Positions 21,302 to 48,264 of a stretch of 64,000 bases of DNA are shown here, one piece after another; position 1 is the first letter of the stretch, and each line of letters opens with the position of its first letter. Origin of the DNA: Apostichopus japonicus (lineage: Eukaryota > Echinodermata > Holothuroidea > Aspidochirotida > Stichopodidae); the NCBI RefSeq assembly GCF_037975245.1, contig NC_092568.1, forward strand, positions 8,505,001 to 8,569,000. Direction: 5' to 3'. The position numbers were made by a program, and so were the translations under genes. The notes beneath the pieces were generated by a model. The model worked only from the letters and a program-made list of their open reading frames with translations, ran no database searches and was not told the origin of the DNA.

Positions 21302-21355
21302 ATGGCGAAGAAATGCAACAGTGATGAAGATTTCGCTAGACAACTCCAAAAACAG
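21302..21355 (+). CDS. TDP1: TDP1 exon 1 (start codon, ubiquitin-motif-like helix)
   Basis: Encodes [18 protein letters not shown], continuing in exon 2 as [12 protein letters not shown]. The acidic-then-ARQLQ pattern resembles UIM/MIU ubiquitin-binding helices, which is an inference from pattern only. Phase 0 donor CAG/GTGTTT. Confidence 0.85.
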
Positions 21356-24300
21356 GTGTTTATTTAGTTATGCAGTGAAATGAAGTAAAAAATTGAATAG
21401 TTTAGTTTATCCTTTCCTTTAATTGTTATTAGTTATGGCCATATGCCACTCTACACTACAGTAAGCCTAGGGCCTACAGTAGACCTAACTTAGCCCTAAC
21501 AGTAACACTAAAACTAAGTAACAGTTGTAATCTTGAGTTAGGCCCTAGGCCCTAAGTTGAGTAACATTTCTGTAACTAGCTGCGACCTGGTGTAAGACTT
21601 ACTAAAATATAACTTATGGAACTTCAGCCTCAATGGGATATTTAGTGCAATAATTCTCTGTAGGCTCATTTATGTCAGTATATACCTGTAGTTAATGCTT
21701 CATAATTGACACACCTTCGTAATTAATGCACCTTCAGTTATCACTAGCAACAATACAGCAGGCAACCTAACCTTGTTGCAGCAAAGCAGTGTTACATATT
21801 TCATGAGTTTGAATCCCTTTGAGGTATGTGCTGATCAAATTGTGTTTTTCTTTTGGCTTCCGGCCAACACCCTCCCTCTCCCCCCCCCCCCCCCAGCTGC
21901 ATGTGTTTTTGATATTTTGGTATTTGGAATTGGAAATCTTACTCCCTAAAAATAACCAAAATTACCTCAATATATTACCATTACTCTCTGGGACCTGACC
22001 TTTCTGAGCTTAGAGGCTCAGAGCATAGAAAACAACATCCAGAGTCAAAAGTACAGTTAGCTTTCGACGAAAGTGTCAATTTCGGGTATGAAAGAACTTG
22101 ACACGGCAGACACTTTGTGGTCAAGTTCTGCTCAATTGTATGTTGTTAGGCACAGAACAATAAATAATTTGAAAATTATTGGATTTCTGAAGGACTACAC
22201 ATACAAAAAACGCATACAGTTGAGTGCTTTGGATTTTTCCTTCATAGACATCGTTGATCAAATCCTAAAAGACATTGAAGACTCCCCCCAAACCGTGTGC
22301 CGCCCTGTGAAAAAGTTAACTTTCCGTTGCTTGCAAGTGAAGGTTTTTTCTTGTCGCTACAAAATGCAGACAGTAATGAAACGTGATACCTTGTTATCTT
22401 TTATCTAGACCTGAGATGGCCATCGCTGCTATGTACACTGTGTTATGGGTATTGAGCGTAGCTGCATGTAGTGACTGTACACTAGTGTCTAATTACCGAT
22501 GGTAGCAAGCTGTGTGTGTATTTACTGGGTTCCATGGTGGTGTCTAACACTTCTGTTACACCTCATTTGAAACTAGATCAGATTACTGGCATGAGATGTT
22601 TCTTTGTGCGCGAGTCTTCACACCCTTTAAGTGCGCCAATTATGAGCCCACCATGGTTACAATAGTTTGTTCACCTTGGCTTGATCACAGAACAGTTATC
22701 AACTATGCTCATATGCACTCACCATGCGGGGGAGGCTCTTACCCCATCATCAATTAAATTAGGATGGTGCTCTTGCTTGTTTATCCAACTGTTTGTAAAA
22801 TGAACATTGCTCTGATGCTTACTTTGAGGTTTTCCAATAAATGTTGGATGTTGATATGCCCTCCCAATCCTCCTATACCCAATCCCCCCGTAATTTCAGA
22901 TAAAGAAAATGTGAAATTAGGAATACAAAGTAGTTACGCAACCCTGCAGTGAAAGAACAACTGGGGCTAAATCCCACCGCAAAAATTTACAAACCATGGA
23001 AGATGCCGTTCAAACGGTGTGATCAACCTGCATTTATAAGAACATTATTTGTAATATGTGAATAATTTATTTGTCAAGGAAATCTTTCTCCTTGTAATGA
23101 AAAGCAGTTGGAACCATCAATGTAAATGTACAGTACTGTACATGTGTTTAGTTTTCTCATTTGGTTCATACTTCTTCAAATTGCTCATTCCTCATTTCAT
23201 CGGGGATAATCCTAAGCAAGGATGGTTGTGGTGAACAATAGATGATGCAGGAAGTGTAACCTTTATCCAAATGAGGCACTTCTTTCCAACGTTAAGATCT
23301 TTCACATAGAATGAGCAAATGACAGCAACAAGTAGCGGATGATAGCTCTTGTGGCAAATTGCCAGCCATTGTTTACTGGCAAAACATATTCCCTTACAAC
23401 CGACATAAGGGTTAAGTATGCTCACAAGTCACAGGTCTTCAGTGAGATACAGTACTCTGTAAGTTGTCAGAAGTCTAAGTTGTCCAAACAAATCAATAAT
23501 ACATAGACTAGACAGTCCTATTAAATCTCTTTGATAATTGGTATAGTAGTGATCATTGATTTCAAGTCTAGTGATGATGATGCATATATATGCCAGCTGT
23601 TACTAAGGGATTGTTATATGATTATTTGGTCTCTAAAAACATTTTGCAAATTTCCAGTTTGACAAGGAAGCAGCAGAGATAGATCAACGTGAAGAAGAAG
23701 ATAAAAAGATGGCAGGAGCCTTAGCAGCTGGTCATGAAATATCCTCCTCGGAAGATGAAGATGACGCAAAGCAACCAGAAACCGTCTCCCCAAAAAATGT
23801 GGTGAAAGAGTCACCACCATCTGCATCATATACTCGTACACCTGCGAAGCAACAGGGCTCAAAGAGGACCAGCGACAACGAACACAAGAAAGAAATAGGA
23901 AAACCCATGTGTGCTTATGGAACGTACTGTATTCGCAAAAACCCTCAGCATTTCAGGGAATATCATCATCGCAGCAAAGGTAATTTTAATTTGTAATGCC
24001 ACTTATTGTTTTAGTTTTAAAAGTTAAGATCCCCAGTCAGTTTGACCAACAAGGCTACAAAGCCCTGAGAGGTGAAAACTGGTCGGAATACTTGATCAGT
24101 CTATGTTCAGCGAATAATTTGTCCATTATCACATTGCCAAATGCTAATCCAAATGGTGAAGTTGATATACAAGTCCAAAGCTGTATAGCAGGTTTTGTAC
24201 AGGAACCATATTATTTTATAAGGGACAAAGTTCATAGCCGTCAAAAATGCTTCACAAAATTTGGAAAACTAAAATATTCATGATTATCCTGAATATATTA

Positions 24301-27300
24301 ATAATTCAAAGTACTGCTCTGTTTCAAACTGGAATGGTGGAATCACAATCGGTCAGAAACAGAAAATGTAAATAATATTTTACATCAACAGTTTCCCCAA
24401 AATGCCAATGAAAATTTCATCAAATAGTAATGGGATTGATTGATAATTACAGTACAATAATGAAGAGAAGTAGATGTAAATTTCCATCAGTAAACACCTG
24501 AACTCCTGAAAAATGATTTCATAGGGGATATTCATGCATGGCATTTAACCCAATAACTTAAAAGCATCGTAATCCATCATACCAAGTTTACAAATACTAA
24601 AGTGCTTTGCAGTTGGAAACTTATCTACTGTGGCTTGAACCTGTCATTCCAATACAATGGTTTGCATGGATCCATTTTCAGTATACAGGTGCACAACATT
24701 TGTGAACCTAGCCTGTGTGAACATACATACACTGACTTGTTATAGTTTAGTGTCGTTTCACCTACAAAGTAGCTACCAGTTGATTTAATAAAATACCTTC
24801 TCAAAGCTGAGCTGACTTTTATGTCTCAAAACACGCAACCATCACTTATTCCTTTATACTGTATGATTATTTAGCAATTAGAACAAAACTCATGCTCCCT
24901 TATCCTATCTACTGCATGGTATTAAAATATCATGTGTAGAAAATTGTGATGGTGCCCAGTCACTTAAGGTTATGTTGGGCATTTTTTACCAGCCAATATA
25001 AGCTTCATCATGAGGTTTGATTCAACTTAGAAAGGAAGTAGATCTAGTTTAAAGGCCAAGTATTGAGAGGCCTTATTATTTAATGTTTTGGATATGTTTC
25101 ACTAGTAAAAACGTATGGAAATTGTTACCTTGTAGCTACTATAGTCTGAATTGGTGCACATACTGATTTTTAATGTCTGCTTGATATACATTGCAATCAA
25201 TTGCTATACAATCTTAAATAATGGTGGCTTTTCATCTCTTAACTTCTTTTGTAAGATGATGATTTAATAAATTTATCTTCTCATTAAAGATTACTCAGAG
25301 TCATCAGATCAACCACCCACCAAGAAGAGGAAGATTTTTTCTGACAGATACGATACATTCCAAGAAGTGCTCCAAGATGCAGATCCGTTCAATTTCATGC
25401 TAACGAAAGTGAGAGGAATTCCAGATAAATTCAATAACAAACTGGCAGTGAACATCAAAGGTACTGTTCTGTTCCTGGTTGTATTGTCTTTTATGCTTTC
25501 CCTTCTTAATTCACCCTATCTCCACCCTATCATCACAACCCTTGATCATATGACCTCCCAGTATGTGAGCACTGTGTGTTCGCATGTCAAGTGGTAGCAA
25601 TGGTAGTTGTGTACGTAAAAGTTGACATTGGTTACAATTTTAAGAATGGAATTAAAGCAACTGAGATAAAGCCTGACATTGATATGTGGTGTTCATTTAT
25701 TTATGAGATTGTTTACCTTGGAATCGTTTTAGACATTTTGAATGATGCGATATGTTTATTATTTTGGTTTTGCTATCGATTGCACAAAATATAGAAATTA
25801 GATTTGGTACTGCAAGTTATTCTAATACTTCTGCTTAAATCTACTGTAGTGATCTTACTTCCTCTGCACTTACCAAACTTTATAAAGTTACGCCATACTT
25901 TCAAATTCAAATCTTTGCAAATATTTTATAGGAATTAGTGTCTTCTGTTGAGGCAGACATTTCACAACACAATTTGAGATGTTTTGTTGCTTAAATTTTA
26001 TGTAACCCAGAATTCTAAAAAAAAGTAAAGTGCCACTCCATGCTTTTTTAAATTTTGTCTGAATGAATTTGAATATCTAGGGAGTTATGTTGTACAAGTA
26101 CTTATGTGAAAATTATAAGAAATCATGTAGGCACATTTATAATTAATTACCTTTTTGTTGAAATGTCTATATTAAGCCCAAGATGATTCCACTATTATTT
26201 AAATGTTAGAAAATCTTTGAACAGATATATGTAGGAATACTAGATGTAACATCTACTCTTAGCCATTCATGATATATTTTTGATCTCAATTTCAGATATC
26301 TTAGCTGTCAGCATGGGAAATCTTGTTGAATCAGCTCAGTTTAATTACATGCATGATATTCCATGGTTAATGCAACAGTACCCTCTGGAGCATAGGTAAC
26401 TTGTAACCTCTTTCTCATCTTTATCTGGTATTTTACAATTGTTCTAAGCTTGTCAAAAGAATGAGCAACAAGCAAACAATAATCAGATCTTGCTTAATTC
26501 ACCTAATGCGTAAAACTTTATTTTTGACTGCATTCATAACTGAGCCTAGAAATGTGACCAAGTGCAAAGTGTCCACATCTTGAGGAACTTTTTCGTATAA
26601 TACAAGTTTAACATTTTGTCCTTAAAAGGAAAGAAGTTTTAATTAATTATGCTAGACATAATCAACTGATCATGCAAATTAGACCCATGAAGTCAAGTGC
26701 TGTGGATGTTGCATTAATTTGTTCTCCATAAACGATTCAAAATTAGATCAATGCATCTTTTTTTTTCCATTTTGATTTAAGGGGTTTTATGTGATTTAAC
26801 AACATAGCACCTGATGTTGTTTGGTTTTGTGTATTCGTATAGTGCTGAATTATTGTTTCAAAACACCTCAAAGCCTTTATGTCTATGTGGAGTAGTATCC
26901 CCCTCTCCTTTTAGAGAGTTTGATAAAAATGAATAGTGCTTCATTTCTTTGATTGTTTCTCACATGATGCATTTCATATTTACAACAAATTGCAAGAAAT
27001 ATATACGGCTTATTCTTTAACCTTAGATGCCTTAAACATATTCGAGCTATCAAATTTTGTTTCCTTGTTTGAAGCGTCTGTGAAGAAAACTGACTATTGT
27101 TCAACATTTCCTTCAATGTTTATAGAGAAAGTAGAACCCATTTACAAAGCATTGTTTATGATCTTATCTCAATTACATTGCGTAAACAATTAAGGCTATT
27201 TATCTTCCTTAATAATTATTGTTAACAATATAAAATTCCTGCTGTTTCCTCCAAGGTCTTCCAAAGTAAACATTCAATCCTTGGCTAACATAGTATTTCA

Positions 27301-30300
27301 AAGCTTTATAAGAATAATTAATGTATTTTGATAAATGTACCGTTACCAAACTTTGCAGATATTATTTGTGATTGGCCTAATTTGAAAGAAAACAAAAACA
27401 GAAATGTTGCTGGTGGTTTCTTGAATGACTTTGAATGTCTTTAACGGTCATCTGAACAGCAAAGTCGATTGTCCAATGTAAAGTACTGTGTAATGGTTCT
27501 ATAAATTATAGTAGAAAATTATTTGACTTTTGGATAACCTCAAGGATAATTGAATAAGATCAATATTGAGAAGATATTTTTAGTTATGGGACCATCTTGG
27601 ACAACCCTAAAAGATTAGCCTAGGTACATCACATCTATTCTGCATAATGAAAATGAGTCATGTCGTCTCCATTTCTATGGGTTTTATATATATCATACTT
27701 GAAGCACAAAGTGCATGTTGTTGAAGAATGTACAGGTTATTTTTTTTGGTGTAAATGAAAATTCTCTAAATATATATATTGAGATATTAAATAATGGTAT
27801 TACCTAAAGATTGAAGTATTTGTAATTACCATGATTAAACTTGAAACTTAAAACAAAGACTTTATTTCAAAACCTCCCCTCCCCTCTACCCAACCCCCAC
27901 CCAACCCTTTCACTCCTTTTCCTTGTACTACAGTAATTTTATTATTAAAGTTCAAATGTGATAGCAACATTGGCCTGTTACAGTAGAAAAATGTAGTTTC
28001 ATGAATGATTCTTAGTAGAATACTATTGAAACTTTACAGAACCAATTTCTGTTATAATATAACATATAAAATAATATCTGCAAATTTTTTGTTATAGCAA
28101 ATATGACAAATAAGATTGACCAGAGCTCAATAAATCGTTTCTTTTTCATTCACAGTATTTTGTCCACATAACCGTTTGTATAATTTTTATTAGCATTCAC
28201 ATCTTTCAGCATGGCTGCAGTACACTCTCACATACTCCTGGAAATTACTTGAAACTGGGTATTCGATTCTCTATGAACTGGTCAGTGGATTAGACCAACA
28301 CCTCCCCTTCCCCTCACCTCCCCTCCCCCACCCTTACTTCCTGGCTATCATTCTAGAAACATCTTAATCAAGAATTGCTTTACATATGTGCATAATAATC
28401 ACAACTAGTCATGTTCAAAGGGTTTCCTTTCTTGAAGGTCCAAACCTCTATTGATTGGATTAGTCCCACCCCCCTCCCCTCCCCCACCTTTCCTTCCTTG
28501 ATATCCTTCTAGAAACATCTTAATCCAGAATTGCTATACATATGTGCATAATAATCAGTCATGTTCAAACGGTTTCCTTTCTTGAAGGTCCAAACCTCTA
28601 TTGATTGTACATGGAGAGGACAGACAAGGCAAGATCAGTCTTCATGAGGCTGCACACAACTTTCCTAATGTCACACTCTGTCAAGCAAAATTGGACATGT
28701 TATACGGAACTCATCATAGGTAAGTTGCATCACTCCAAATTTGAAACTGTCATAAATGAAAAAATTTCTGACATTTCACAACAGCCATGTCATCAGGATT
28801 TGTCTGGTCACTTGAGTGGAATAAATCTCTGATCAGATTCAACCAAACCTTTCATTAGGATTGCCTATTAAAGGGAAAGCTTCTTTAATAATATTACAAA
28901 ATGCTCTAGCTCTCTCAGTTTTTTATATATCAATAAACTTGCAATGCACAACATAGGATTTCATGCATTGGTTGTGAGGCATGTGAACCCCAAAATATTC
29001 TACTAAGTTTGCAGTTCAAAATGTCATGTGCATTGTCTGAATTAAATTTTGAGTGCTTATTCTAATTTACATATTGTTTTTGGTTGTTTTCTTGATCAAA
29101 ACAAAAGCACTGGTTTCTACCCTTTCAAGGATGACTTGAGACACAAAATTAATTTTGATATGTTGCAGACCCTTCAACATCACTGATAGCAGTCTAGGTT
29201 TTACTTCTAAAACACATTTAATCGTTGAGAAATTACCCTTTAAACATCTGAGGCTCATCAATGAAAGTGGCTGAACCGCTTAGTCTAACACACAGACCAT
29301 AAAGTTAGTTCCCCAGATATAACACAAAAATCAATAGGAAAAGATCTTTGCCGTGACCTCAAATGACCTGTTTGCAGTGTATTCCAAACTGGTCAAAGGA
29401 CAAATGGAGTTGAATGTCATCCAAGGTTGCTCTGTTGTTTGAAAGTGAAAATAATGTGTTTTTCATTGAGTTACAGTTTAGATTTTGAGTATTAAATTCT
29501 ATAAAACAATGGATTAATATGTAGGCCTGCATCGAGGAGCCAACACAGTCATCAGTTTAGCCTTAAAGGCATTGAAGACTCGCTCACAAAGAAATGTCTC
29601 ATGCCGGTACTTTGACCTAGTTTCGAATGAGGTGTAACAGAAGTGTTAGACACCACCATCGATCCCAGAAAATACACATACAGCTTGCTACAGTCGGTAA
29701 TTAGACACTAGTGCACAGTCAATAAATGCTGCTATGGTCAATACCCACAACACAGTGTACATAGCAGCGATGGACATCTCAGGTATAATAAGATAACATA
29801 TAAAAGATAACAAGGTATCACGTTTCATTACTGTCTGTATTTTGTAGCGACACGAAAAAAACTTCACTTGCAAGCAACGGAAAGTTAACTTTTTCAGAGG
29901 GCGACACGCCGTTTGGGCGAGTCTTCAATGCCTTTAAAAGGAGCATTCCAGAAAATTTGCATATTTTAAAGGTGAATTTCTTGAATACTGATGGAACTAT
30001 AAAAAAATCATCAGCTCTAAATTTTTTTGGGGGCTTGGGCTATAACTTGTCTAGACAAAAATTCTGCACTCAACCTTTAAGTACTTTAAATACCAATGGT
30101 AAGTCATTGTTAGAAATTATATGATGGCAGCACACAAGTACTCACCTATGAATGTCGGCATGAAAATCCCTTTGATAGCAAGGACAGCTGAAGTTGTTTG
30201 TTAGTTACTCTGTGTCTGTCTTGCGTTTGCTGTAGAAGGTGTCTTTCTCAAATGCTAAACAAAATGTACAAGTATTGTTTGCAGTAATATTTGTATTGAA

Positions 30301-33300
30301 GTTTAACAGATTCCTCAATATGGCTATACTTGACTTGGCATATTATCGGTGCCTGGTTTTCGAAACTAATATGTAGCACCTGCGCAAATCACGTTTAGCT
30401 CTGTTTCCCAGGAGTCCCTGCATTAGTTACAGTATATTATTATTTTATGCCCTGAATGTGCAAGATCTTGCACTCTCTGATATTTAAAACCACATCCAGA
30501 TAATAAGAACAGGAAAAGGACTCTGCAAGGAGCCTTTCTAAAAAAAGTCTATTTTGAATTTTTATTTATTTAAAAATTGATGAATCTGCCATTCATTCAA
30601 GTCAGTTTGAACCATGGACATCCATAGGGGATGTTGTAATTTATGCCTTTTGCATCCTGTAAGTAAATACTAAGCCTTGCAAAGCCTGTATTGAATCGCC
30701 GGTTTATAGGCTACACAACTGGTGCTTTACAAATTTGAGAATTAGAGTTTGCAAGAAATAATTGCCGGGTAAACTTGGTATTAGATAACTGCAGTCTATA
30801 GTACACCGCTATGGTTTCTTGCTTGTTTATAATACAACTTTTCCTTTCTTACTTTCTGGATGTTTCTATAGACATTTATACAGATTTATGGTCGTAATAA
30901 ACGTCCGATGTTGTAGTCATCTAAATGACACCAGACATGTCGGATGTACAAAATAAAAACTTTATTGTTCAGTGTTCCAATTGATTTGTCTAGTTAAGTT
31001 GTGTCCTCTGCTTTTCATTTTAGTCTGACTCTGAAGAATTAAAAGATTAAGATTGAAAAGATTGAAACATCAAATTTATATTTGAAACATACACAGGCTT
31101 ATTGCTGTAAACCAGCAGTTTTGTTATCAAATAATCTCTGTATGTAGTATGAATGCTTGCCACTAAACACAAAATTTCATTTGCTTAATTATGGAAAAAT
31201 AAGGCCTTTGCATTCCAATACTGTTTTTTTTTTGCTCTTCCTTTTTCATTTACCCTGAGATTCAAAACCTGTAGGTCTCATTTTAAGGTCAGAATTTGCA
31301 GTGTTTGCTGTTGCAGGAACCTGTTGCAAAGAATGTCCCAATTTGTTATTTCTAATTGTTATGGCATCATGCTCATAATTATTGGTCAAAGGGGGGTAAG
31401 ACAAATCCAATGTGGTCTAGAGTGAGGTGAATTTTTTGGGAAGGACTGAGCATGTGGAAGGGCAAGGAACCACACCATTTAGCAAGTTTCTGGTTTCATA
31501 AGTTTGTGAATTGTTTTTCTAGTTAAGTTTCACTCCTTGTATTTACAGTAAGATGATGTTGCTAATCTACACGAATGGGCTACGAGTTGTAATACATACA
31601 GCAAATCTTGTTGAACAAGACTGGGACCAGAAAACACAGGGGTAAGCAAAGAGATAAAACTTAGTTGTAGTGAAGCCGACTTTGATGCTTACTGATTTAA
31701 TCAGCTGACCATGCAGTTATGCTTCGTAAACAAAATTTTATAAATATTTCAGCTCTCTTCAGTCTATTCACTCATGTATCTATTGGAATGTTTTCATTAA
31801 TTTTAATTAGTATACTAAAAACAGGCGCGTATCCAGGATTTTCAAACCCGGGGGGCGCGAATTACTATCTAAGCGGAGCGCCACCATCGGTTGGCGCGCA
31901 GCGTACAAGAAAATTTCTTATTTTGATACCCCCCCAGATCACCGGAAACGGCACTTCTCGGGCTTGAAATGACCAACCAGATGTACACTTTTTGCCTGAG
32001 AACCAAGTATTTCCTAATAGTTTTTTTTCCATCCATAACCTTTTTGAAGATTGTCAACCCTGCACACATCATGTTCGACCTGATCGCATCTCCTGTGGGT
32101 CTTTGCTTTTGTAGGTGATTCTACGTCGCGGCCCACAATACTCGTCAGCCCCACTTTTCAAGGTTTTAAGCCCCATATTTGTTCAGAATTTGAAAATTCA
32201 CATTTCTCGTGAATAAACTCACTTCAAAACGTACCCATAATGTTGTACAAAATTTCATCTATGGACAACCAATATAGAAAAACTTCCTTCAACCCTAACA
32301 GACCGGTCAAAATTGCACGAGTAGAGGGAAGTGTGATGCAGAATGTTGGTCAGAAATTTTCGAAACTTCAGACACAGTTAATTTATTGGTGTACAAATAT
32401 TAAAACCTCTTATAATGGCTATTATAAAACTTGGTTGAAGGAAATGAGAAAATAGCAGATATTACCGAAACCGAACACTACACACATAGGCGTAGGAGGC
32501 GCGGCGGCAGTGGCGGAGCTAGGGGTATTGGTCAGGAGGGGCGAGAATGGTCTGTAGGGGCGCTTTCGACACTATCTAAGCGGAGCGCCACCACTGGTTG
32601 GCGGGTAGCATACAGAAAATTTTTTGAGTAAAGATACTCCCTAGATCGCCGGAAATGACCCTTTCCGGGCCTGGCTAATTTGCAGATAAACGAAGAATAA
32701 GGTGTCATCGCCAAATTACACCAACAAAATGTGACAAATGTCAATAAGTAGATGAGAGCGCAATAAAAAAGTCAATAATCTAGAATAAGTAAAAAGTGGT
32801 AAAGAGCTGAAAAAGGCGCCAGCAGTCCATTTGAGTCCATCAGGGGGGCATCTGCCCCCATGACCGTATGGACGCTCCGCCACTGCGCGGCGGGGGTGCA
32901 GCCCCTAATTCACCATTACTAATGTAAAAAAGAGTTTTGACATAATTGGACCTCCATGCTTTTTTTACATCTACATGAGACATGTCGTTGTTTACATTAG
33001 CATCCCGCGGTATACTGCGCAATTTTAACGGAACGTACGGTACACGATGGCATGCGATGTAATAACCGATGCTTGCTTATAAGATATTGACATTAACACG
33101 TTGAGTGCGCGCGAAAATTTTTGGTTATTTCTTCAGGCAAGTTGGACAGTTTTGAGGCTTTTCATCCTGGAACGCCATTTTCATGCTCACTGATATGATG
33201 TGATATCTGCTGTTTGCGTTACAAATTCAAACAGGCGCGTAGCGAGGAATTTGTCAAGGGAGGGGCGAAGCCTGTAGGCAAATTATCTAAGCGTAGCGCC

Positions 33301-36300
33301 ACCATAGGTTGGCGCGAAGCGTACAAGGAAATTTCGGCCGAAAATGCCTCCCAGATCGCTGGAAATGGCACCACCCAGGACCATTTGTTAGCGCAAAGCG
33401 TACAAGCAAATTTTGGCCAAAAATGTCTCCCAGATCGCTGGAAATGACACTTCCCAGGCCTTGTAAGTTGCATCTACGCACTTGCTATTTTGAAATTACT
33501 TAGCGATATCATTTAAAGAAGTGCTGAATGGGGGGGGGGCGGGCGGTCGCCCCCATCCCAAAAATCGTCATGTTCCCCGACGACGCTGTTGAGTTTAAGA
33601 CCAGCCACAGTTGGTTTCATAGCAAAATTATACACACGCGTTATGATAGACCATATATAGTATATATATAGATCATTAGTGAGAGAGGAAATGGAAACGT
33701 TAAAAAATGGAGTTGTCGGTGTAAGGGGTAGGGTGAGTCACACATTTACGAAATCATTGATCCGTCACTGGCTACCCTTCAGCGCTGTAATGATGTCACT
33801 GTTCTTCTTTCTCTTCCCGATGTCTTCGCGTTTTTCTTTTACTCCCTCCTTTTCTCCTTTTTCTCTCTTTCTTCATTTTCTTTTCCCTTCCGTCCTCTCC
33901 TCCTCCTCTTTTTCCCCCTTTTTTTCCTTTTTCTTCTCTTTTTTTCTCTCCTCTTTTTCTTACCCGGGGGGCGCGCGCCCCCAACGCCCCCCCTGGATAC
34001 ACACCTGAATAATACAATTTATAATGTGCTATTATCCAGAAAATGGCATTCGTTCAAGGCGTCGTACCAAAATAAATTGTGACACGGATGTAACTATGGT
34101 GAGGTTAAAGAGTTCCAAAGCTTAATAGGAGTTACCAATGATAAGGAAGAATCATAGAAGCAAGTGAGCGATCAAGCAGGAGTTAGTGTAAATGTTTTAA
34201 AATACAAAGAGGAGCTGTTAACTTTTAATCAACCCATCCAGGTCTGTCTGGTTTCAGACTGCAATGGTGACTTGGCCTGGGTGTATCAGCTATGAAACTG
34301 TTGTATACTTTTGACTTTTTTCCCTTCCAAAATGACAGACAATCCCGAAAGGTAATATACCTCTTGTGATATAAAAAATGCAACTAGCTGACAAATATGT
34401 TTTGTATTATAGTTTATTTGAAAGAATAGAAACGTTACATTACAAACCCAACCATCCGCTTAAAATGTCCTCAACTATGAAATAGTGTGCACTGTGTTGA
34501 ATTATGTATGTCACACATCTAGCCAGGGTTCTAAGAAGAAGTGGCCATCTACAAATATATATTTCTGTTACTGCTACTTGTCATTTAGCCTTTGAAGAAG
34601 ATCCTGCTAGGATCGAAACGTCAGGCCAACTTACTTTTACACATTATATATATTTTAGACGGTTTACTTTGGTTTATGTTGTAAATGTTGGATACGTCAT
34701 ATTTGTATTACAGGATGACAGTAGGCAGAATTATGTTAGTGCTCCTATGTCATAATCCAACAGAAAAATGAAAAATTGATTGTTAGTATTTCAACACCTT
34801 TCTCTTTCAGGGTATGGATAAGTCCTCTCTTCCCTAAGCTTGAGGAGGGTGAACTATCCCTGGATGGCATTACAGCTGACTCTGTTACCCATTTTAAGAG
34901 GGACCTTGTGGAATACCTGTCCATGTATAAGTCTATTTCACTCATGAGATGGAAGAAACATATATTACAACATGACTTCACCAGTGCCAGGTGAGAAAGG
35001 TGGAACAATTGTTCAGGAATCAAATACCAAAAAATGCTATGTAAAATGGTGTAGTTGCTATGCAACAGAGAAGATGTATATTGGTATATATATCAACAAG
35101 CACACCTTTTGTCAAGTTTTGGGAGAAACAAATATCAATAAACCTCAAATCTGCTACACAAACTAAAACTGCTAAAGTTATTTCCTAATAAAATAAAACT
35201 GTTAGCAAACTGCTTATCCATTACAGAGCCTGTGTAGGAAAATGTGTAAAAGTAAATTGGTAAATTGACGTTTCGATCCTAGCTTTAACCTTTGAAGAAG
35301 ATCCTGCTAGGATCGAAACGTCAGGCCAACTTACTTTTACACAAAGTTATTTCCTGGGGTTATTTGCCTACTAGTAACAGTAGTCAGAGAATATCAAGTG
35401 TCCAGGGGAAGGGGGGGGGGAGGCAGGAGAGGGTTGGTGTTTGGGCTGCGTGAATATCCGGGTAGCTGCCTCTCTGATTGTGTTTGGATTGACCGGGTGT
35501 TACATCATTTGAATCATTCTACAGTTAAGCTTGCATGTGATAAACTCTGCAACTGTAGTCTGTAATTTGGTATCTACAGTGCCCCTAGGCTTAAAACTTG
35601 TCAGCATCTATGAGAACCGTCAAGCAGTTATTAGTCAGTGGTCTGCAAGTGTGAAACTTTGGTCTTGAATCAATACCAGTCATGTTTTTTTTTTATGGTA
35701 GGTGAAACTGCTGCATTGAGTGAACAGATCTAAACCGCTGTCATAATGCATCAATATGCAAACCCTCTCTGTCATTAGAGCATTGCATTGTATCTCTACA
35801 ACCTTGTACAGTAGCTCTCCCGTAGGTAAAGTCTTTATCTCCAGGTGGTCTAGACATCTCAGGAAATGTTGTTATGTCTATTTGCAGAGTTTTCTTGGTA
35901 GCCTCCATTCCAGGAAGACATACCAACGATGCTAAAAGTAAATGGGGCCACATGAAGGTCAGAAAGGTAACTAGGAGATTATTATTGAATAATATTAAGA
36001 AGTGGAAAACTTTAACCCCTTTTGTATCCTTAATCATTCTTCCTCTATTTATGATAACTTTTATGTTGAAAATTTTTTTGTTATATTCTAAGACAGTCAT
36101 AAGTTAAATGTAACCTTTGCCGGATTTATCAGCAGAGAGTCTTTGAATTGTTGTTGTCACATAAGATTGTAACTTATGTTATATATTTTTAAGATGAGAA
36201 ACCTAAGTCACTTCTCAGACTTAAACAAAAAATTCCCTCATTCGGTTTCTATAGGATAGTATTAAACTTTACAGAAAACTGTCCAATGGTATATGAATGT

Positions 36301-39300
36301 TTCCTTTGCACTTTTATGCTCTGCCTCCACCCATTTGAGGGGGGCGGGGGATTAGGCTTTGATACGTTGAAAGCTTCTGTAGGGGATTCATAACTTACCA
36401 TAAGTTTGTAAGGTTTTAGATATTTGGTGGAGCAAACTGGAATGAAAGCAGTTTCTCCTTTTATTGCTCAACAAATATCTGTCTGCATACTTAGAAGGTT
36501 TTATCTTTTACAAATTGGAGTAAAACTTAAAAAAAATCAACCAAATTATTGCAGTTATAAACAGTAAACACACTAGTTTATAGTGATCTGTGTGTTTGTC
36601 TAAATAAAACATCCTACTTATTGTTAATGTTTACATTTTAATGTAACATTCACATGAGATCATGGTGAAGTACTTCCTTCCTAACCTTTATCAGTTATTG
36701 ATATGAAAAAAATAGTAAAACTGCTGTTTCCTGCAAACAAAAATCAGTGATTCATAAGTTTTCAGGTAAAAAGTGTTTTTTTTAATGGATCTATAGAGAG
36801 CAATACTTTAAAGCTACCACCCGCTGATAAATGTTGCTAATCGAGGAAGCATAGGTGAGGTCAATTACTTTTTACTTTTTTGTTTTGTTTTTGCAGGTTC
36901 TTTCAAAGCAAGGTCCTGACAGTGCTATGGTTAGAAACTGGTCTGCGATTGGTCAATTTTCGAGCGTTGGTTCCCTCGGGGCTGATCAGACCAAGTACCT
37001 GTGTGGTGAATGGCTACAGTCAATGCTCTCATCCAGAGGAGTATCAACCCAGTATGCATCCAGAGATGTCTCAACTAAGACACTCAAATTGGTAAGTTGG
37101 TCTCAGTTTGAGTTTGAGTGTATGTCCACAACAATAAGAGAGGAGTAGTACAGAGTCGAGATAAAACAAGGTGGTGGAGGAGGACCGAGTACGAGCAGTC
37201 CCCCTTAAACAGTTAAAACATTACAGATAAGCAGAATACAACAATAGAGGAAAAGAACAAAGAAAAAAAAAGGCATTTGGTTAAAGGAACTCTCTGGTGG
37301 TAGACAATGTAAGAATAATATTGAAAAGGGAAACATTCCACATGGTCAATTGAAGACCCCCCCCACCTCAATATCTTGTCCCTTGCCCAGTTTTATTGAA
37401 TGGGTTCAAGTAATTTCGTGAATTTGGAAAAAGGAAATACATAAAACTATTTATTTTCAAACAATGGAACTTTGTTTAAGTGGCTTATCTAACGGACCAT
37501 GAAAAATGAGATGGTTTTACCAAGCTAATTTTGTCAAGAACGTTTCATTAAGAAATTAAAGATCGAAAGTATCCAAAAATTTATCAAATTTCATTCATGT
37601 ATTTCTTTACCCATGCCTCTTGCTTTACACAAACTTCGTTTAAGCGGCTTATCTGACGGACCATGCAAAATGAGATGGTTTTACCAAGCTAATTTTGTCA
37701 AGAACGTTTCATTAAGAAATTAATGATGGAAAGTATCCAAAAATTTATCAGATTTAAACAATTAATTCATGTACTTCTTTATGCCATGCCTGTTGCTTTA
37801 CATAAGCCAATGAGATAACGCAGTGTAATGCATATTCATTACCAACGAAATTCTCCTTGCTCGAAGAACAGCTGATCGTCGATGTGACTAGCAGACTACT
37901 GACAACAGTAGTAAATGTGCAAAACCTAGCCTATAGTCACACATAATACTACACTTGGTATCACATACCTTCCATTATCTTCACAGTCTCTCTCTGACAG
38001 AGCCGAATAGCCTAACTATATTAGAACTAGGTCTCTGACTAGGCTACCCTATTATACTAAGACATAGGCTACTAACAGTTAGCTCAGGTTCCACCTGACG
38101 TTCAATGAAGCTGATCAAAGGAACACTGACTTACCATCTTTATTGTATATTCAATTCAGAAATAATCTCACATCCAAGGTCCTATGATATTAAAATAGTT
38201 GTCCGGTGATAAAACCTAACGTAGAGGAAGAATTTAGTCAAGAAGAAAAAAACCGATATCACTACTACATCCTTTTACTATTTCACAGGATTAGTGTATA
38301 TCCTATTACTTAACAACGCAATACCATGCTGATGCAACCACGGAACTAAATAAAAACTTACAGGCCATGAGGCAGTTAGTTTTACAAACACTAATGTGGG
38401 AGAAGCTTGCAAGGATTTATGGATTACAGCTTCACATCGGGTGGCTTCCATTCGACATTTTAACTCAAATTTAGAATCGAAAATGAAGCAGTGTGCATTT
38501 GTTACACCGGTGACACCGTTGCTGTTTAGTGTTGCATATTCATTACTTAACTCGAATCTAGGCGTGGTCTAGCTCTTATAATGTGAACCATTTTTTCAAA
38601 AAATGCTTTCAAAATTTTTCCGTCTATACACCGGTTTCGTTAGTTTTAACAACTATCACTGTCGTCTGCAGTCGTTGAATGACATATTTTATCCATGAAC
38701 AACATCGGTGGTAAATCTAAAAATAAATCACTTTAAACCTGTTATTACTGGCTATTAAACCTTTCCTTACTCCAGGAAGTGGTCTCACAGTAGGTGGTCT
38801 GCAAAGTCAGCTTCAAAAGCTTAACTTGGGATATTTTAATCTTCTCGTTGGTTATCTTTGAAATATGATACATTCATCAAAATACAACTCATTTGTAGAA
38901 ACTGTATTCCTCTGTGAATAAATAATTTGCAATGTTAAAGAAAAACAATTACATTTTCAGCTCAATTGCATTGATGATATCATTGAAAGTGTTATGAGGA
39001 TGTGGTTTGGGCCTATTTGATGCAAAAAAGTTTCCAGCAATATTTATAAGCAAACAGCTGCCGCCACCAGAAGATTGCTTTTAGTTGAAGTCTATGCATT
39101 GGCAGAAAAGTGATTGGGGAATTTTTTACAAAACTTTGAAAGAGGAGAACAGGATTCAACCCAGTGGCCACATGTTTTTGATTCCTGTGTTGCACCAACT
39201 GAGCAATCAAATGATTCCTTGGTGTGGTCATGCCTGTTAACCTTTCCTGTTGCTCTAGTGATGGCTGTCAGGAAAGATAGTATCTTGCATGTGCTTCAAG

Positions 39301-42300
39301 TTTTTGTTTCTGTAATCCCCCAGCATGATAGGGAGTCTATGAGTAAGCTGGCAGTATTGGGATATTTATTTAAGTGGGGTAGCAAGGGTTGGGGAAGAGT
39401 GGGGGATCGTCTTGGCTTCAACTCAAGTGCCAATGTCATTTGTAAGCAAGTTTTCAAGGGAAAAGTGAAAAATATGACACAATAAGTTCAAAATGTCTCT
39501 CCAACAAGAAAGAAGATAAACTTTGATATTGATTAGCCTATCATGTGGCTTGCAATTTCTGTTGCCTTCATTTCCAAATTCAGGGTTTATATTGTTCTTT
39601 GTTACAGATCTTTCCAACAATTGATAATGTCCGTACCAGTTTAGAAGGCTACAAGGCAGGAGCATCTATACCATACAACATACAGAATGCAAGAAGACAA
39701 GAGTACTTCCACACATTCCTACAGTAAGACCAACATTGCCAGAATATCTTTCTTTCTTTAGATCGGGGTTGGGGAGGGTGTGTTCTTTGGCTTAAATACT
39801 GCATATGTCCGTATCCAATTCATATTTATGCAATACCTCTTCATAATGCAAAAAGTAATTTCAAATGCATGCGAAATGTGAAGGAGAATAGCAAAACAGT
39901 GAATTAGATATTGTAATCATATATGTAAAAGTGTATTTTACAGAGGGGTAACTTTAAAGTAACTTGAAACAACAAGTACATTTGGTAATTCATTTTGAGT
40001 CCATTGTCACATTGTCCAGAAGTGAGCATATATGGACATTCCATCATCCTTAACATTATTGGACTTTATTAAATATTTTTTCATTTCAGTAAATGGAAAG
40101 CTAGTAACAGAGGCCGTTCAAGAGCATCTCCTCATTTAAAGTCATATTCACTCCTGTCTCCCGATAGCAAGAAGGCCGCTTGGTTTATGGTCACAAGGTA
40201 AGATCTGTCAGATTTAGTCAATATATGAAGAAAACAACTGTAATCTGTAGTCTATTTGAAATTTACAACCTCAAATAAGTTTCAGGTATGAATTGCAAGT
40301 GGTGTTAACATTTCGTGCCTTCCGAGGTAGAGTGGACAGGACTTCTTTCTTCTTTTTTTTGGCCAGTGTGAAAATGTAAAGAGATGTAAACATTGACAGA
40401 CTTTTTGTACGAGACAGACTCCTCGTGTCGTGGGCCATTTGCAAATGTGCACTAGGGTATAACTTCTTTCATTGAGCAATTTCTCTTTTGCTGAATTTGC
40501 TTTTGACTGATAAAAGAGAAACATGGTAAAAGCATCCTCTTGAAATTTACATCCAATTTTTTGTAGTTCAAAGTAGGAATTAATCGCAATATAAGTGAGT
40601 CATTCCATATTAAAGACAGGTATCTAATTTGTGACATTTTGTAGTGTTCTTGTAACAACACATAATCAACTATATATTACCATGGTCTGTAAAACGGAAA
40701 TAATGTTATTTATAGGGGTTAGCCACTCTAATGTGAAGTACCTGCTTCGCTCAAAAGTCGATGACCTTCGCATTGTTTGTTTATGATAATATTAGGCTCT
40801 ATTTTACCATGTAAATGTTATACTAGCTGATTCACAATGTGACAGAAACACTAAAATTGTCACAAATTTGGATCCGTTATTTATGAAAATGACCTCTACT
40901 CACCACATTCATAAGTATCGTATTAATTTTACAAAATTAGAGCTCGACCAAATTCAAGGTCATTGTTCAAGGTCATTCAAGGTCTTCATTCAAAGTCATT
41001 ATTCAAGTTCATTAAATTCAAGGTCATTAAATTCAAGGTCATTAACAATAGAGTGAAAACTAATTTAACAAAATCTTCATGTAAGTTTGCAATGATGACA
41101 TTACTAAAAGTCATCCATACTTGCATTTAAAGGTGACTGAAGTGTTTTTTTTGTGGAAATTTTATCGAAGTTTTAAGGAAACTTTTTTTATCAAAACCCT
41201 TTTTTCATCACAGTGCTAACATGTCGAAGGCGGCATGGGGAATGCTAGAGAAGAATGGAAGTCAATTGATGATCAGGTCTTATGAAATTGGAGTCCTCTT
41301 CCTTCCTCATCTGTTTGTGAGTATTTTCCTCGAAAACAGTTTTGGAAGATTTCTAGAAGAGACTTGAGCTCTTTTTGTGGAATTGGGAAGGGTGGGGGGG
41401 TCGAACATGAAGCCAACTTTTCCATTTTTAACTGTATCATGTCCACTGTTTGGGATTTGACTTGAAATACTGTGAAAAGATATATTTTAAGTAATAAGGA
41501 ACCCCTGCCTCCATCCCTCCCAGCTACACCTCAAATATTTTTGAAGTAATGTCTTAGGGACTCTATCAAAGCTAATTTCAATGGCATTCTTAAATGTATT
41601 TTTGTCCTTAGAAAATTTTTTAACCTGAGGGACACTTCATTTCAAAATAAATCTCGTAGAATGTGTGTTAAATTTGAATTTGTCTTAATTACTAATTATC
41701 ATTTGCTCTCATCACTGCTTGTCATTTTATCTATATAATCATGGCTTGCTGAAGCTTACATCTCTTCTATTCATTCAAAACATTTCAACATTTCAATTTA
41801 TGGTTTCATCTCATTAGCACTCCATTTTTGTTTTAAATTTTTATTCAATTTTCAATCAAACCTTTCCATATTTAGAAAATATGTTTTGCAATTAAATCTC
41901 CAACAATTGGCAAAATGTGAGAAATTATGCATTTTAGTGAAATACATTTTTTTTTTTTTAGGATGAGAACTGCAAACAGTTTTCTGTCTCTGAGGAAGAG
42001 AGTTCAGAATCATGTCTTCACTTCCCTCTTCCATGGGATGTGCCTCTGGAACCATATACAAAAACAGGTAAGATGCCAAAAACGTCAGTTTAATATAGAA
42101 ACCTTTTTATATCATTTTTTCTCTAGTACAGCAGTAAATGTTGGAAGGGGAAAACTTGCCTGTTCCCCACCTCCCCCCCCCCTAATTTTTTCTGTTCCCT
42201 TTCATGAAGTAGATTTGTCACTTCGGTATATTTCAGCTTTTTGTCACATAAGTTGTTCAAGACTAACCACTCTCTTGTGTTTAGTATCAAACTTTTTGTT

Positions 42301-45300: not shown

Positions 45301-48264
45301 TATTGGCCGTCACCAAAAAAAAAAAAAAAAAGTTTAGCAAAAAAAAACAAAAAAATTGATGACGACCTTTATGTGAGATGTCGGTGATCGCTCAACCCCC
45401 CCCCCCCTCCCGTATGCTTTATTTTTTGTTTGCCAAAAAAAGGTTCTGGCGAAGTTCGGCGGCATAATAGTTTTAGAAACATAGATGGTAATTGTGTTTG
45501 TATTATCACTATAAACACTAAATGACATGCCAGCCATACTAAATTGTGCATTTTGTGTCCATATTTACTGGAAATGTTGCTTATTATTAAGGTCGAAAAA
45601 TGGATCACATATGGCCATGGGCGGCGATCCTGGGTGGAGGGGGGATATATCCCCCCATGAAAATGGGTGGAGGGGATGTAATGCACCATATCCCCCCCCC
45701 TACCACCAAATGCCACGGATAAGAATATTTTCATGCCTACATTTATGCATCTTTGTTAATGTACGGCTCTTTTTTAGCTTCATTTCTCGCCTACCATAAA
45801 CGCAGTGCGATCTTTTCAAATAAAGCGTCTTTATAAAGCAAAAATAGTTGACTGTAGGCTTCATTGGCCCTATAACAACAAAATGTATTATTGCGCCCAC
45901 GGTATTGATATAGTACATATATGCACGCTCATAGTATTCATATAGGCCCTATAGTAGGCCTACACACGTACATGTTCCCTCGAACAGCTGAGAATCTCAT
46001 GTAACCAGGGTAATGCTTAATACACGTTTCACCTGGATGCCCTAGCAATCGGTACCTAGGAATGTAACTATGTGTAATTGTGTATTGCATGTGTATAGGC
46101 CTATAATAGCCTGCATGAGGCCATTTTCTTCATCGAATAATATAACAGAGCTCTCGAACATTCTAACGTTGCGCCTGAAACAAGATTTACAGGGGCAATT
46201 TTCCCAAAATAACACCCGAAATTAAAAAAAAAAAGTATTTTGGATCCTGATTATGAGATATTTCGGACATGACATCCCTATTTTAAAGTTGGGTATATGC
46301 CGCTTGGAAACCTCGGGAAGTGCCGTTTCCGGCCATCTAGAGGGTTTGTTAATCCCAAAATTTTCTTGTACGCTTCGCGCCAACTCATGGTGGCGCTACG
46401 CTTAGATAGTCAACAAGGTCATATCCCCTCCCCCACCCCCCCACTCGGAAGAACGGATCGCCGCCCATGCATATGACACCATTTTGCATTTCAGCCCTTC
46501 TTTGAAAGCAAAAATTGTACACCCCTCCCCTTAGACCCATCCCCCAGGACGGCGATCATTCATGCCTGGCGCCCCCCCTATTGGAAAATCCTGGATACGC
46601 CCCTGATTCATTCCCCCCCCCCCACACCCCTTCCAAAAAACCAGTGTGAATTTTTCTGGCTAAAGATCCATGCCTTCAACTAAGATGTTTGATGAATTTC
46701 TTGGTAATGTTTTGTTAAGGAGCTTTAAGATGATCCAAGCTGTGCAGATGGATGTTATAGTTCATTGTCATATCAAGTGATATTACCTCAACCACTCATC
46801 AAAATTGTCACTTTTAATACATGTAATATTTATTCCTATCCCCTACCACCCTCTCCCCTCACAACCCATCCCATCCTCTTCCCTCTCCTTCTTGTTTACC
46901 CCGTTCCATCCTCTCCACTTCTCTGTCCTCCCATTTCCCACCTCTTAAATTACTCTGAAAAAGTTTTTATACTTATTCAATACTTTAATAGATATTCCAA
47001 ATCATCATTACTTATCCAAACCTTATCCACACCTTATAGTGTTGTCTCCGTTTAAATATTCTGAATTACAGAGTCAGTAACAGAGCTGAGACTTGTCTCC
47101 CACTACTGTGTCTATTGTTACCTAAGCAGTAGCCATTTTGCAACCTGAATGACTGTATCTAGTCACAATTAAGTCACTTTTGTTCTGGATTGTGATTCAA
47201 AGATATGATCTATAGCTTGAATTGAAAACAAGTCCAGTTCCTCTCATTATGTAGGTCAGGGTTATCAGGTAGTTGGGAATGATGGCTTTGTGTAGTAAAA
47301 GTTATCGAAGGAAAAGAGAAAAAAAATGTTCAGTGTGAAAAGACCTTGGTAAGGAAAAATGCAGGCTTTGTGTGTATTTTGAGATGGTAAATATCATTGG
47401 TGGCATTTTGTACAAAAACTAGAAATGATTTGAAAGAAGATCACTCCCCAATTTGCATATCAACATCATTAGTGGGTTGGAATGCAAATCATTTAAAGAT
47501 TGGCTCTTGGCAGAATTGTAGTGTTCATTGGTCATAGTCCCACACAAAGAGAGATGTTTGTAAATTTTGAATGTCCGTACTGCTCATTTAACACACTCTT
47601 CATGAGGATGAGAGCTCCTCAATGCATGCATTCATTGTAATGTTAGCCTATTTTTGGAATAAATTCGAATTAAATTGTCAAAAGATATTCTTATGGTAAC
47701 AAAGATGCATGGTCCTGATGTCCACTTCAATAGCGAAGTGGCTATAACCGTCAAATAAGAGCTTGATAGTTCAGTTCAATGGTAAAGCACGGGATTTATC
47801 CCCCTGAGGTCACTGCTGCGAATCCTGTTCTTGCCAACAATTTTGGTGCTCTTTCGAAAAAGAAAAAAAGGAAAAAATTATTCCATAGCATCAGGGATCT
47901 GAAGATGAACTCCAAAAGTATTTGACCTTGACAAATTTCAAATTCAACTATTGTACAGTTATTTGAAACCCTCAATCCCTTAGGATGTTTTATTTTGTTA
48001 TTGTTTTGTATGCCTTTTGAGGAGGGGGACTCAATGTACTCTGCCCTAAACTAGGTATTTCAGCCACTTTGATTGATTTTGCATTTGTTGTTAAAAGGTT
48101 AATATCTCAATAAGTGAAAGTTATACTAACATGCATTCTCTTAATGATGGTTTTTCATCATTTGATATTTGCTATCTTTTACAGACAGGCCATGGGTGTG
48201 GGACATACCATACACAGACAAACCAGATACCCATGGTAACTCATGGATACCAGGTGGACGATAA
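21302..48264 (+). CDS. TDP1: Tyrosyl-DNA phosphodiesterase 1 with N-terminal PBZ zinc finger
   Basis: DNA-repair enzyme that removes trapped topoisomerase I peptides and other 3' adducts. Fourteen exons: 21302-21355, 23658-23979, 25290-25460, 26296-26395, 28588-28719, 31549-31641, 34811-34990, 35888-35966, 36897-37091, 39608-39723, 40090-40197, 41214-41316, 41962-42067, 48185-48264. All borders are AG/GT with consistent phases, giving 612 residues (human 608). Order: acidic/serine-rich N-terminus, PBZ finger at about 101-124 ([15 protein letters not shown]), basic NLS KKRK at 137-140, then the phospholipase-D fold. Catalytic HxK motifs are THHSK (H259, K261) and PHLK (H496, K498), matching human H263/K265 and H493/K495. 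The start has a good Kozak context (acagaaATGG); stop TAA at 48262-48264. The PBZ finger is not in human TDP1. No inactivating change was seen. Confidence 0.96.
22270..22626 (+). mobile_element. TTAA-type MITE, degenerate copy (TDP1 intron 1)
   Basis: 357-bp element related over most of its length, in inverted orientation, to 29567-29933. Left end AGACATTGAAGACTC; right end GCGAGTCTTCA...CCT followed by TTAA; the left target site has decayed to TAAA. A 111-codon frame begins before the element and runs into it. It is a chance frame: the corresponding copy is broken and has stops. No transposase. Confidence 0.75.
23658..23979 (+). CDS. TDP1: TDP1 exon 2 carrying the PBZ finger
   Basis: Encodes a charged region, a possible CK2-type acidic patch SSSEDEDD, a Ser/Pro/Lys-rich linker and then [20 protein letters not shown] and YHH. 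Spacing C-x5-C-x6-H-x5-H with YG between the cysteines and RKNP after the second is the PBZ signature seen in APLF and CHFR. In those proteins the domain binds poly(ADP-ribose). Confidence 0.92.
28287..28606 (+). repeat. Tandem duplication spanning the TDP1 exon 5 acceptor
   Basis: Two adjacent copies (28287-28456 and 28457-28606) begin 'ggattag', continue through a C-rich stretch, 'ctagaaacatcttaatc', 'acatatgtgcataataatc' and 'tttcctttcttgaag/gtcc', and end 'tctattgatt'. The first copy therefore contains a decoy 3' splice site (AG at 28436-28437) and the first 19 coding bases of exon 5. Only the second copy continues into coding sequence. Confidence 0.9.
28588..28719 (+). CDS. TDP1: TDP1 exon 5, first catalytic histidine
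   Basis: Encodes [15 protein letters not shown] and ends [14 protein letters not shown] plus a split Ser codon. The second His of THH is the nucleophile position in the family. The acceptor is the second of two duplicated copies (see the repeat at 28287-28606). Confidence 0.93.
29567..29933 (-). mobile_element. TTAA-type MITE, intact ends (TDP1 intron 5)
   Basis: 367-bp non-autonomous element with perfect 17-bp terminal inverted repeats AGGCATTGAAGACTCGC, flanked directly by TTAA on both sides (29563-29566 and 29934-29937). TTAA duplications are used by piggyBac and Kolobok transposons; which one mobilised this cannot be told here. Its interior is the reverse complement of 22270-22626. Confidence 0.85.
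32508..32885. mobile_element. hAT-like MITE with perfect 8-bp target duplication
   Basis: 378 bp, ends CAGTGGCGGAGC and its inverted copy, flanked on both sides by CGCGGCGG (32500-32507 and 32886-32893). CAG...CTG ends with an 8-bp duplication are the hAT superfamily pattern. No transposase. The target is itself the end of a related GC-rich element. Confidence 0.85.
33314..33460 (+). repeat. Internal tandem duplication in hAT-like element
   Basis: Two copies, offset by about 78 bp, of a module running 'gcgaagcgtacaaggaaatt' to 'cagatcgctggaaatg' and 'cccagg'. The same module occurs in single copy at 31890-31965 and 32600-32670, and inverted at 46300-46400. Confidence 0.75.
34589..34643 (+). 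repeat. Hammerhead-like repeat, copy 1 (TDP1 intron 6)
   Basis: Reads TTTGAAGAAG, a GATCCT-gct-AGGATC stem-loop, then GAAACGTC and a tail 'aggccaacttacttttacac'. TGAAGA + stem + GAAA resembles the CUGANGA/GAAA core of hammerhead ribozymes found in Penelope-like elements and SINEs; the first core C is U here. No cleavage-site arm was confidently identified. Confidence 0.5.
35244..35342 (+). repeat. Hammerhead-like repeat, copy 2, within a long inverted repeat (TDP1 intron 7)
   Basis: The right arm (35306-35342) and loop repeat copy 1 almost exactly. The left arm (35244-35283) is its reverse complement with a few changes (GTGTAAAAGTAAATTGG ... GACGTTTCGATCCTAGC). The result is a stem of about 37 bp with a 22-base loop, as if two copies had joined head to head. 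Confidence 0.75.
37468..37803. repeat. Tandem duplication, 164-bp period, TDP1 intron 9
   Basis: Two adjacent units begin 'aacttTgtttaag' and 'aacttCgtttaag' and share 'gagatggttttaccaagc' and 'tttgtcaagaacgtttc'. High identity suggests a recent event. No coding content. Confidence 0.9.
39125..39225 (-). mobile_element. tRNA-derived SINE (TDP1 intron 9)
   Basis: On the minus strand it reads ATTGCTCAGTTGG (RNA polymerase III A box, complement of about 39194-39206), then 34 bases later GGGTTGAATCC (B box, complement of 39152-39162). Spacing and flanking text ('...ctggGTTGAATCCtgttctcc') follow a tRNA-derived SINE head. It does not fold into a clean cloverleaf, so it is not called as a functional tRNA gene. 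Confidence 0.65.
40090..40197 (+). CDS. TDP1: TDP1 exon 11, second HxK motif
   Basis: Encodes [18 protein letters not shown] and then [19 protein letters not shown]496-L-K498 aligns with the human general-acid histidine 493 and lysine 495. Exon 12 continues [16 protein letters not shown], which is highly conserved. Confidence 0.94.
40954..41043 (+). repeat. Minisatellite with TCAAGGTCA units (TDP1 intron 11)
   Basis: About 90 bp of 'attcaaggtcatt'-like units. Four perfect TCAAGGTCA sequences start at 40954, 40967, 41018 and 41033, with near-matches between. TCAAGGTCA is the extended half-site bound by monomeric nuclear receptors of the ERR and SF-1/FTZ-F1 types. The repeat may bind them by chance. 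Confidence 0.8.
43800..44060. promoter_or_regulatory. Possible intronic enhancer (TDP1 intron 13)
   Basis: Homopolymer-free block of higher complexity than its surroundings, with clustered homeodomain-type sites (GATTAATTG, GTTAATTAGATTA) and two 'cataaATTcatga'-like motifs. No direct evidence of function; conservation in related genomes would decide. Confidence 0.2.
45257..46605. mobile_element. hAT-like element with nested insertion (TDP1 intron 13)
   Basis: Left end CAGGGGCGTATCCAGG and right end CCTGGATACGCCCCTG are inverted repeats. ATTCA is present on both sides (45252-45256 and 46606-46610), a possible 5-bp target duplication. The element contains a second one, 45619-46468. No transposase seen. 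Confidence 0.7.
45619..46468. mobile_element. Inner hAT-like element
   Basis: Ends CATGGGCGGCGATCC and its inverted copy. Flanking 8-mers catatggc and catatgac differ at one base, consistent with an aged hAT target duplication. Near the right end it carries, inverted, the 'cttagatag...ggcgctacgc' module found in the 31.8-34.0 kb nest. Confidence 0.65.
47757..47880 (+). mobile_element. tRNA-derived SINE with A-rich tail (TDP1 intron 13)
   Basis: Reads 'gatagttcagttcaatggta' (A box region), 'gcacgggatttatccccctg' (anticodon-arm-like), 'aggtcactgctgcGAATCC' (B box) and ends in an A-rich tail near 47860-47880 (aaaaagaaaaaaaggaaaaa). The order and spacing are those of a tRNA-derived SINE. Confidence 0.7.
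48185..48264 (+). CDS. TDP1: TDP1 terminal coding exon
   Basis: Encodes [19 protein letters not shown] and SWIPGGR, then TAA. The segment matches the conserved TDP1 C-terminus (human ends ...DTHGNMWVPS). It is separated from exon 13 by a 6.1-kb intron, the largest in the gene. Confidence 0.93.

Follow-up and report, generated by a model that had tools for sequence, protein, structure and literature searches.

An Apostichopus japonicus TDP1 gene with an N-terminal PBZ zinc finger predicted to bind poly(ADP-ribose)

PBZ fingers have been described as confined to eukaryotes and as occurring mostly in damage-response proteins, and different lineages have fused them to different members of this class (PMC4245714, PMC5087659, PMC10665377). 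An N-terminal PBZ is found on HPF1 of insects, sea urchins and molluscs and is missing from human HPF1; poly(ADP-ribose) (PAR) is bound by the fly protein and not by the human one (PMC4858568). In Dictyostelium, PAR binding by Ku70 is dependent on its PBZ and the PBZ of APL likewise binds PAR (PMC5087659), and the Ku70 finger is needed for chromatin enrichment of the protein (PMC5087659, PMC8529158).

The recruitment of human TDP1 has been reported to depend on PARylation (PMC6895789, PMC8373905), in agreement with a preliminary description of the present locus. In human cells trapped TOP1 is PARylated fast, the contact between TDP1 and TOP1 is increased when PAR is retained and decreased under PARP inhibition, and persistent PAR blocks the action of both the proteasome and TDP1 (PMC8373905). 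Human TDP1 contacts the C-terminus of PARP1 through its N-terminal domain, and a further PAR-dependent route by way of XRCC1 has been proposed (PMC6895789); the TDP1 N-terminus has been called understudied and the least conserved region of the enzyme (PMC10547559, PMC6895789). That human TDP1 itself is devoid of a PBZ finger, as had also been stated, agrees with the mammalian lists in the portions of text available, which name only APLF, CHFR and SNM1A (PMC4245714, PMC4030884). A further paper also counts three vertebrate PBZ proteins, but names them CHFR, APLF and APL.

The window, which is the whole stretch of DNA that was analysed, comprises 64,000 nt of Apostichopus japonicus NC_092568.1, from 8,505,001 to 8,569,000 of the forward strand. 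A TDP1 gene of 14 exons is complete within it, running from 21302 to a stop at 48264 on the plus strand and encoding 612 aa. Each of the introns is of the GT-AG type (13/13) with compatible phases throughout, and nothing in the uninterrupted reading frame suggests a pseudogene. The features of the gene, in window coordinates, are as follows.

21302..21355, plus strand: TDP1 exon 1, with the start codon and 18 residues, ending in phase 0 at a weak donor
23658..23979, plus strand: TDP1 exon 2, with an acidic N-terminal stretch, the PBZ finger and an extra in-frame ATG before the finger
23901..23969, plus strand: PBZ finger, 23 residues (aa 100-122), from Pfam PF10283, the APLF match and the consensus scan
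25290..25460, plus strand: TDP1 exon 3, a linker with a basic KKRK stretch, followed by the beginning of the catalytic fold
26296..26395, plus strand: TDP1 exon 4, from the gene model
28588..28719, plus strand: TDP1 exon 5, ending within the first catalytic motif (the HH of HHSK)
31549..31641, plus strand: TDP1 exon 6, with the Lys and Asn of the first HKN motif
34811..34990, plus strand: TDP1 exon 7, from the gene model
35888..35966, plus strand: TDP1 exon 8, from the gene model
36897..37091, plus strand: TDP1 exon 9, from the gene model
39608..39723, plus strand: TDP1 exon 10, from the gene model
40090..40197, plus strand: TDP1 exon 11, with the His and Lys of the second HKN motif (PHLK)
41214..41316, plus strand: TDP1 exon 12, with the Asn of the second HKN motif
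41962..42067, plus strand: TDP1 exon 13, from the gene model
48185..48264, plus strand: TDP1 exon 14, stop codon included

Exon 14, which lies 6.1 kb past exon 13, carries a 21-residue motif, and the KKRK stretch of exon 3, a motif picked out by eye, is possibly a nuclear localisation signal. The border of intron 4 and exon 5 holds a tandem duplication (28398-28457 and 28548-28607, spacing 150 bp, 92% over 60 nt) which copies the acceptor together with the first 20 nt of exon 5 and so provides a decoy splice acceptor, and a 92-nt pair adjacent to it is 89% identical. Two copies of an inverted repeat (22287-22631 and 29562-29917) flank exons 2-5 and are complementary over 226 nt at 88% and over 118 nt at 94%. 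Elsewhere in the window, a piece of an ABC transporter gene lies on the minus strand at 2336-2617 (ABC_tran, 37 bits), its best PDB match being 'ABC transporter D family member 1' (in two stretches, 115.9 bits), ahead of ABCD4 (72 bits); the span 417-638 reads by eye as the end of this gene and gave no Pfam family match. A B9-C2 (ciliary basal body) gene is partly present at 15569-16063 on the minus strand (102 ORF residues, 112.2 bits). Search of the window against Rfam returned 0 matches at gathering scores.

The catalytic part of the encoded protein is that of TDP1 over its full length. Tyr-DNA_phospho (PF06087) matches residues 161-584 with 437.7 bits, covering profile positions 2-445 of 445, and the best PDB matches of the protein are TDP1 chains, the top one at 535 bits. 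The part is 52% identical to human TDP1 in an alignment to the PDB-derived human sequence, with the two HKN motifs (H259-x-K261...N279 and H496-x-K498...N519) unchanged at their His, Lys and Asn. Both HxK motifs, which had been announced as lying in frame downstream of exon 2, are thus present there as H259/K261 and H496/K498, and hydrolysis of 3'-phosphotyrosyl DNA bonds is the predicted activity of the enzyme.

The finger ahead of this domain can be assigned to the PBZ family by several routes. Exon 2 had been proposed at 23658-23979 with a C-x5-C-x6-H-x5-H arrangement, and this span indeed holds 107 codons plus one base without a stop, with the spacing as claimed and all four zinc ligands present (C103, C109, H116 and H122). 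With the whole protein as query, PF10283 (PBZ) scores 28.9 bits (E = 1.1e-06) at residues 100-122, above the curated cut-off of 22.7 bits, and with exon 2 alone it scores 31.9 bits; the Pfam search called for in the preliminary description therefore scored the finger as PBZ. Comparison of exon 2 with all PDB chains gave four matches up to E 10, and those with E < 0.1 are only two APLF constructs (43-44 bits) covering both PBZ fingers. The other two are proteasome-subunit constructs (E 0.81 and 1.7) over the acidic stretch, which look like matches of composition.

With respect to the published consensus, [K/R]xxCx[F/Y]GxxCxbbxxxxHxxx[F/Y]xH (PMC4030884), every named position is found in the finger, namely K, C, [F/Y]G, C, the basic pair, H, [F/Y] and H. 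Three residues stand before its first histidine and not the four of the consensus, and both APLF fingers in the PDB match share this. Scanning of the six frames of the window, with three or four residues allowed before the first histidine, found the PBZ consensus once, against 0 occurrences in 200 random sequences with dinucleotide frequencies kept, while the bare spacing C-x5-C-x6,7-H-x5-H turns up about 0.1 times per random sequence. A chance or low-complexity match is ruled out by the profile score and the random sequences. AlphaFold2 modelling of a 36-residue finger fragment was uninformative (mean pLDDT 50.8, single-sequence alignment). Taken with the APLF matches and the in-frame gene model, the Pfam score bears out the original claim of a PBZ finger fused to TDP1.

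We consider it likely, at a probability of roughly 0.7, that this is an intact TDP1 gene whose N-terminal PBZ binds PAR and helps to recruit the enzyme, binding and recruitment being inferred. The finger sits in the N-terminal tail, 32-38 residues ahead of the catalytic domain. It would fold around zinc and bind the PAR that PARP lays down at TOP1-DNA crosslinks, at single-strand breaks or on nearby chromatin, and such binding would raise the local concentration of TDP1 at the damage. Once PAR is removed and TOP1 degraded, the catalytic domain would hydrolyse the 3'-phosphotyrosyl bond. One protein could in this way do what human TDP1 is reported to achieve through its contact with PARP1, its own PARylation and perhaps XRCC1. 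The precedents for such a role are HPF1, Ku70, APL and SNM1A, all with measured binding to PAR (PMC4858568, PMC5087659, PMC11199599). As a single finger is expected to be weaker than the tandem pair of APLF, it would probably be one among several weak tethers. A naturally occurring enzyme of this type would uncouple the recognition of PAR from contact with PARP1, and comparison with a fingerless version would show cleanly whether reading PAR directly is sufficient.

The preliminary description had attributed the fusion to this lineage. We lean instead towards a fusion that is ancient in invertebrate TDP1 or arose there repeatedly, and that vertebrates lost or never gained, a view which is compatible with PAR reading by the finger. 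Because the distribution of PBZ on HPF1 is patchy, being present in insects, sea urchins and molluscs and absent in human (PMC4858568), a lineage-specific gain is no more likely than an older or repeated origin. The occurrence of PBZ on other repair proteins in several lineages (PMC4245714, PMC5087659, PMC10665377) and the description of the TDP1 N-terminus as least conserved and understudied (PMC10547559, PMC6895789) point in the same direction. In a published TDP1 phylogeny two invertebrate clusters are described, as is a highly variable N-terminal part of the enzyme, and the words zinc and PBZ are absent from its main text (PMC10547559).

Searches for relatives gave no pattern match for the catalytic part alone in viral contigs, and with the alignment of window and human protein none of the pattern matches was confirmed, either in viral contigs (0/61) or in genome contigs (0/68); since these collections consist of viruses and prokaryotes, the null results say nothing on animals. 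No description of a PBZ in TDP1 was found in the available portions of the open-licence PBZ and TDP1 literature searched; TDP1 is possibly named in published lists of PBZ proteins (Ahel et al. 2008, the original PBZ paper, and Fig. 1A and S1A of PMC4858568), and a PBZ-TDP1 may well be listed in eukaryotic protein domain databases. With HPF1 as the nearest parallel, a lineage-restricted PBZ is an established principle, of which the fusion to TDP1 is a variant. A TOP1-repair enzyme would thereby join HPF1, Ku70, Ung and ligase K/E among the lineage-restricted PBZ carriers.

It is rather unlikely, in our estimation, that the finger is a PBZ by descent only and a poor reader of PAR, with its zinc fold used for contact with protein or nucleic acid or having little function. 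The argument for such a finger comes from APLF, where the adenine and phosphate contacts of each finger are made by two tyrosines (Y381/Y386 and Y423/Y428) and one arginine (PMC6264785). The first tyrosine and the arginine are kept here as Y105 and R111, and the second of the adenine-contacting tyrosines is replaced by Ile110, because of which the affinity for PAR may be lowered. The finger is moreover a lone one, whereas the two APLF fingers together bind PAR more than 1000-fold better (PMC4030884). However, all named consensus positions are occupied as expected, and the consensus needs no aromatic residue at the position of Ile110. The PBZ peptide of SNM1A has a threonine at the second-tyrosine position and is devoid of the first tyrosine as well, and, although more divergent and further from the consensus than the present finger, it binds PAR in vitro and aids recruitment (PMC11199599). 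As PAR is bound by SNM1A without either tyrosine, I110 need not prevent PAR binding.

The region ahead of the finger (21302-21355 and 23658-23760) is acidic and holds two D/E-rich repeats of the A-x-x-L type. By eye, residues 7-47 resemble two short acidic helices of the ubiquitin-interacting type. Searching aa 7-47 for MIU or UIM motifs in Pfam gave no UIM match and only two matches, both under the cut-off of 27 (CCDC50_N 13.6 and Sas-6_C_CC 12.7 bits), and against PDB the same residues gave four matches (E 0.89-1.2), none of them named as a ubiquitin-binding helix; a ubiquitin-interacting motif in exons 1-2 was therefore set aside as having no profile support. It is doubtful that the tail reads two signals, with the PBZ binding PAR and one or two of the acidic stretches (12 and 16 residues) binding ubiquitin. 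Such a tail would sense the order of PAR and then ubiquitin on trapped TOP1 and engage fully only with both marks, and, if true, this TDP1 would be the counterpart of SNM1A (UBZ + PBZ) for TOP1 crosslinks.

The presence of the finger in the TDP1 protein depends on the splicing of exon 2. The junctions that had been put forward for checking, 21355/23658, 23979/25290 and 25460/26296, are of the GT-AG type and phase-compatible, and they extend into the 14-exon frame of 612 aa. Ranked with leave-one-out matrices built on the TDP1 gene's own sites, the donor of exon 2 stands 11th of 1608 GTs and the acceptor of exon 3 25th of 1555 AGs. The sites on the other side are weaker (exon 1 donor 184/1608, exon 2 acceptor 143/1555), and three donors elsewhere in the gene rank at 362-443 of 1608; owing to its weak donor, the first exon is the least certain part of the model. 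Skipping of exon 2 yields early stops, the phase 0 end of exon 1 being incompatible with the phase 1 start of exon 3. Upstream of exon 3 the frame runs for seven codons to a stop without passing an ATG, and exon 2 holds its own in-frame ATG ahead of the finger. The open length of exon 2 is no argument by itself, as the window contains, over its six frames, 12 stop-free stretches of 119 aa or more, each no shorter than the one around exon 2. An unrelated ORF at exon 2 can be dismissed, given that the phases fit, that the frame is lost on skipping and that exon 3 is unable to begin a protein alone. The link of the finger to the catalytic exons is consequently predicted as firm, and the start of the gene as less certain. 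It is very improbable that exon 2 is confined to a minor isoform or to a transcript of its own, with the main TDP1 protein lacking the finger. Although the sites that join exon 1 to exon 2 are comparatively weak and an unseen alternative first exon is conceivable, the strong exon 2-exon 3 junction, the frame shift upon skipping, the upstream stop of exon 3 and the internal ATG all speak against it.

Overall, the predicted protein can be placed beside five described systems. With the PBZ fingers of APLF it has in common the C-x5-C-x6-H-x5-H arrangement, the RKNPQH core of the second finger, the zinc ligands and the first pocket tyrosine with the arginine, and it differs in having one finger instead of two, in the change of the second pocket tyrosine to isoleucine and in the attachment to a phosphodiesterase. 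SNM1A (PMC11199599) is likewise an end-processing enzyme whose one PBZ lies in a mostly disordered N-terminal region and aids recruitment, but is another enzyme, a nuclease, with an additional UBZ and a PIP box. Dictyostelium Ku70 (PMC5087659, PMC8529158) is similarly a core repair protein that contains a PAR reader of its own which the vertebrate orthologue is without, although it acts in end joining and the need of its PBZ for chromatin enrichment has been demonstrated. Human TDP1 shares the catalytic domain, 52% identical and with both HKN motifs, and a poorly conserved N-terminal tail (residues 1-149 in human, about 154 residues here), whereas the tail carries a PBZ in the present protein and in human binds PARP1 and XRCC1 and is modified (PMC6895789). 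HPF1/C4orf27 (PMC4858568) is, like this TDP1, a damage-response factor with an N-terminal PBZ in some invertebrates and none in human; it is a different protein, and PAR binding has been demonstrated for its fly form.
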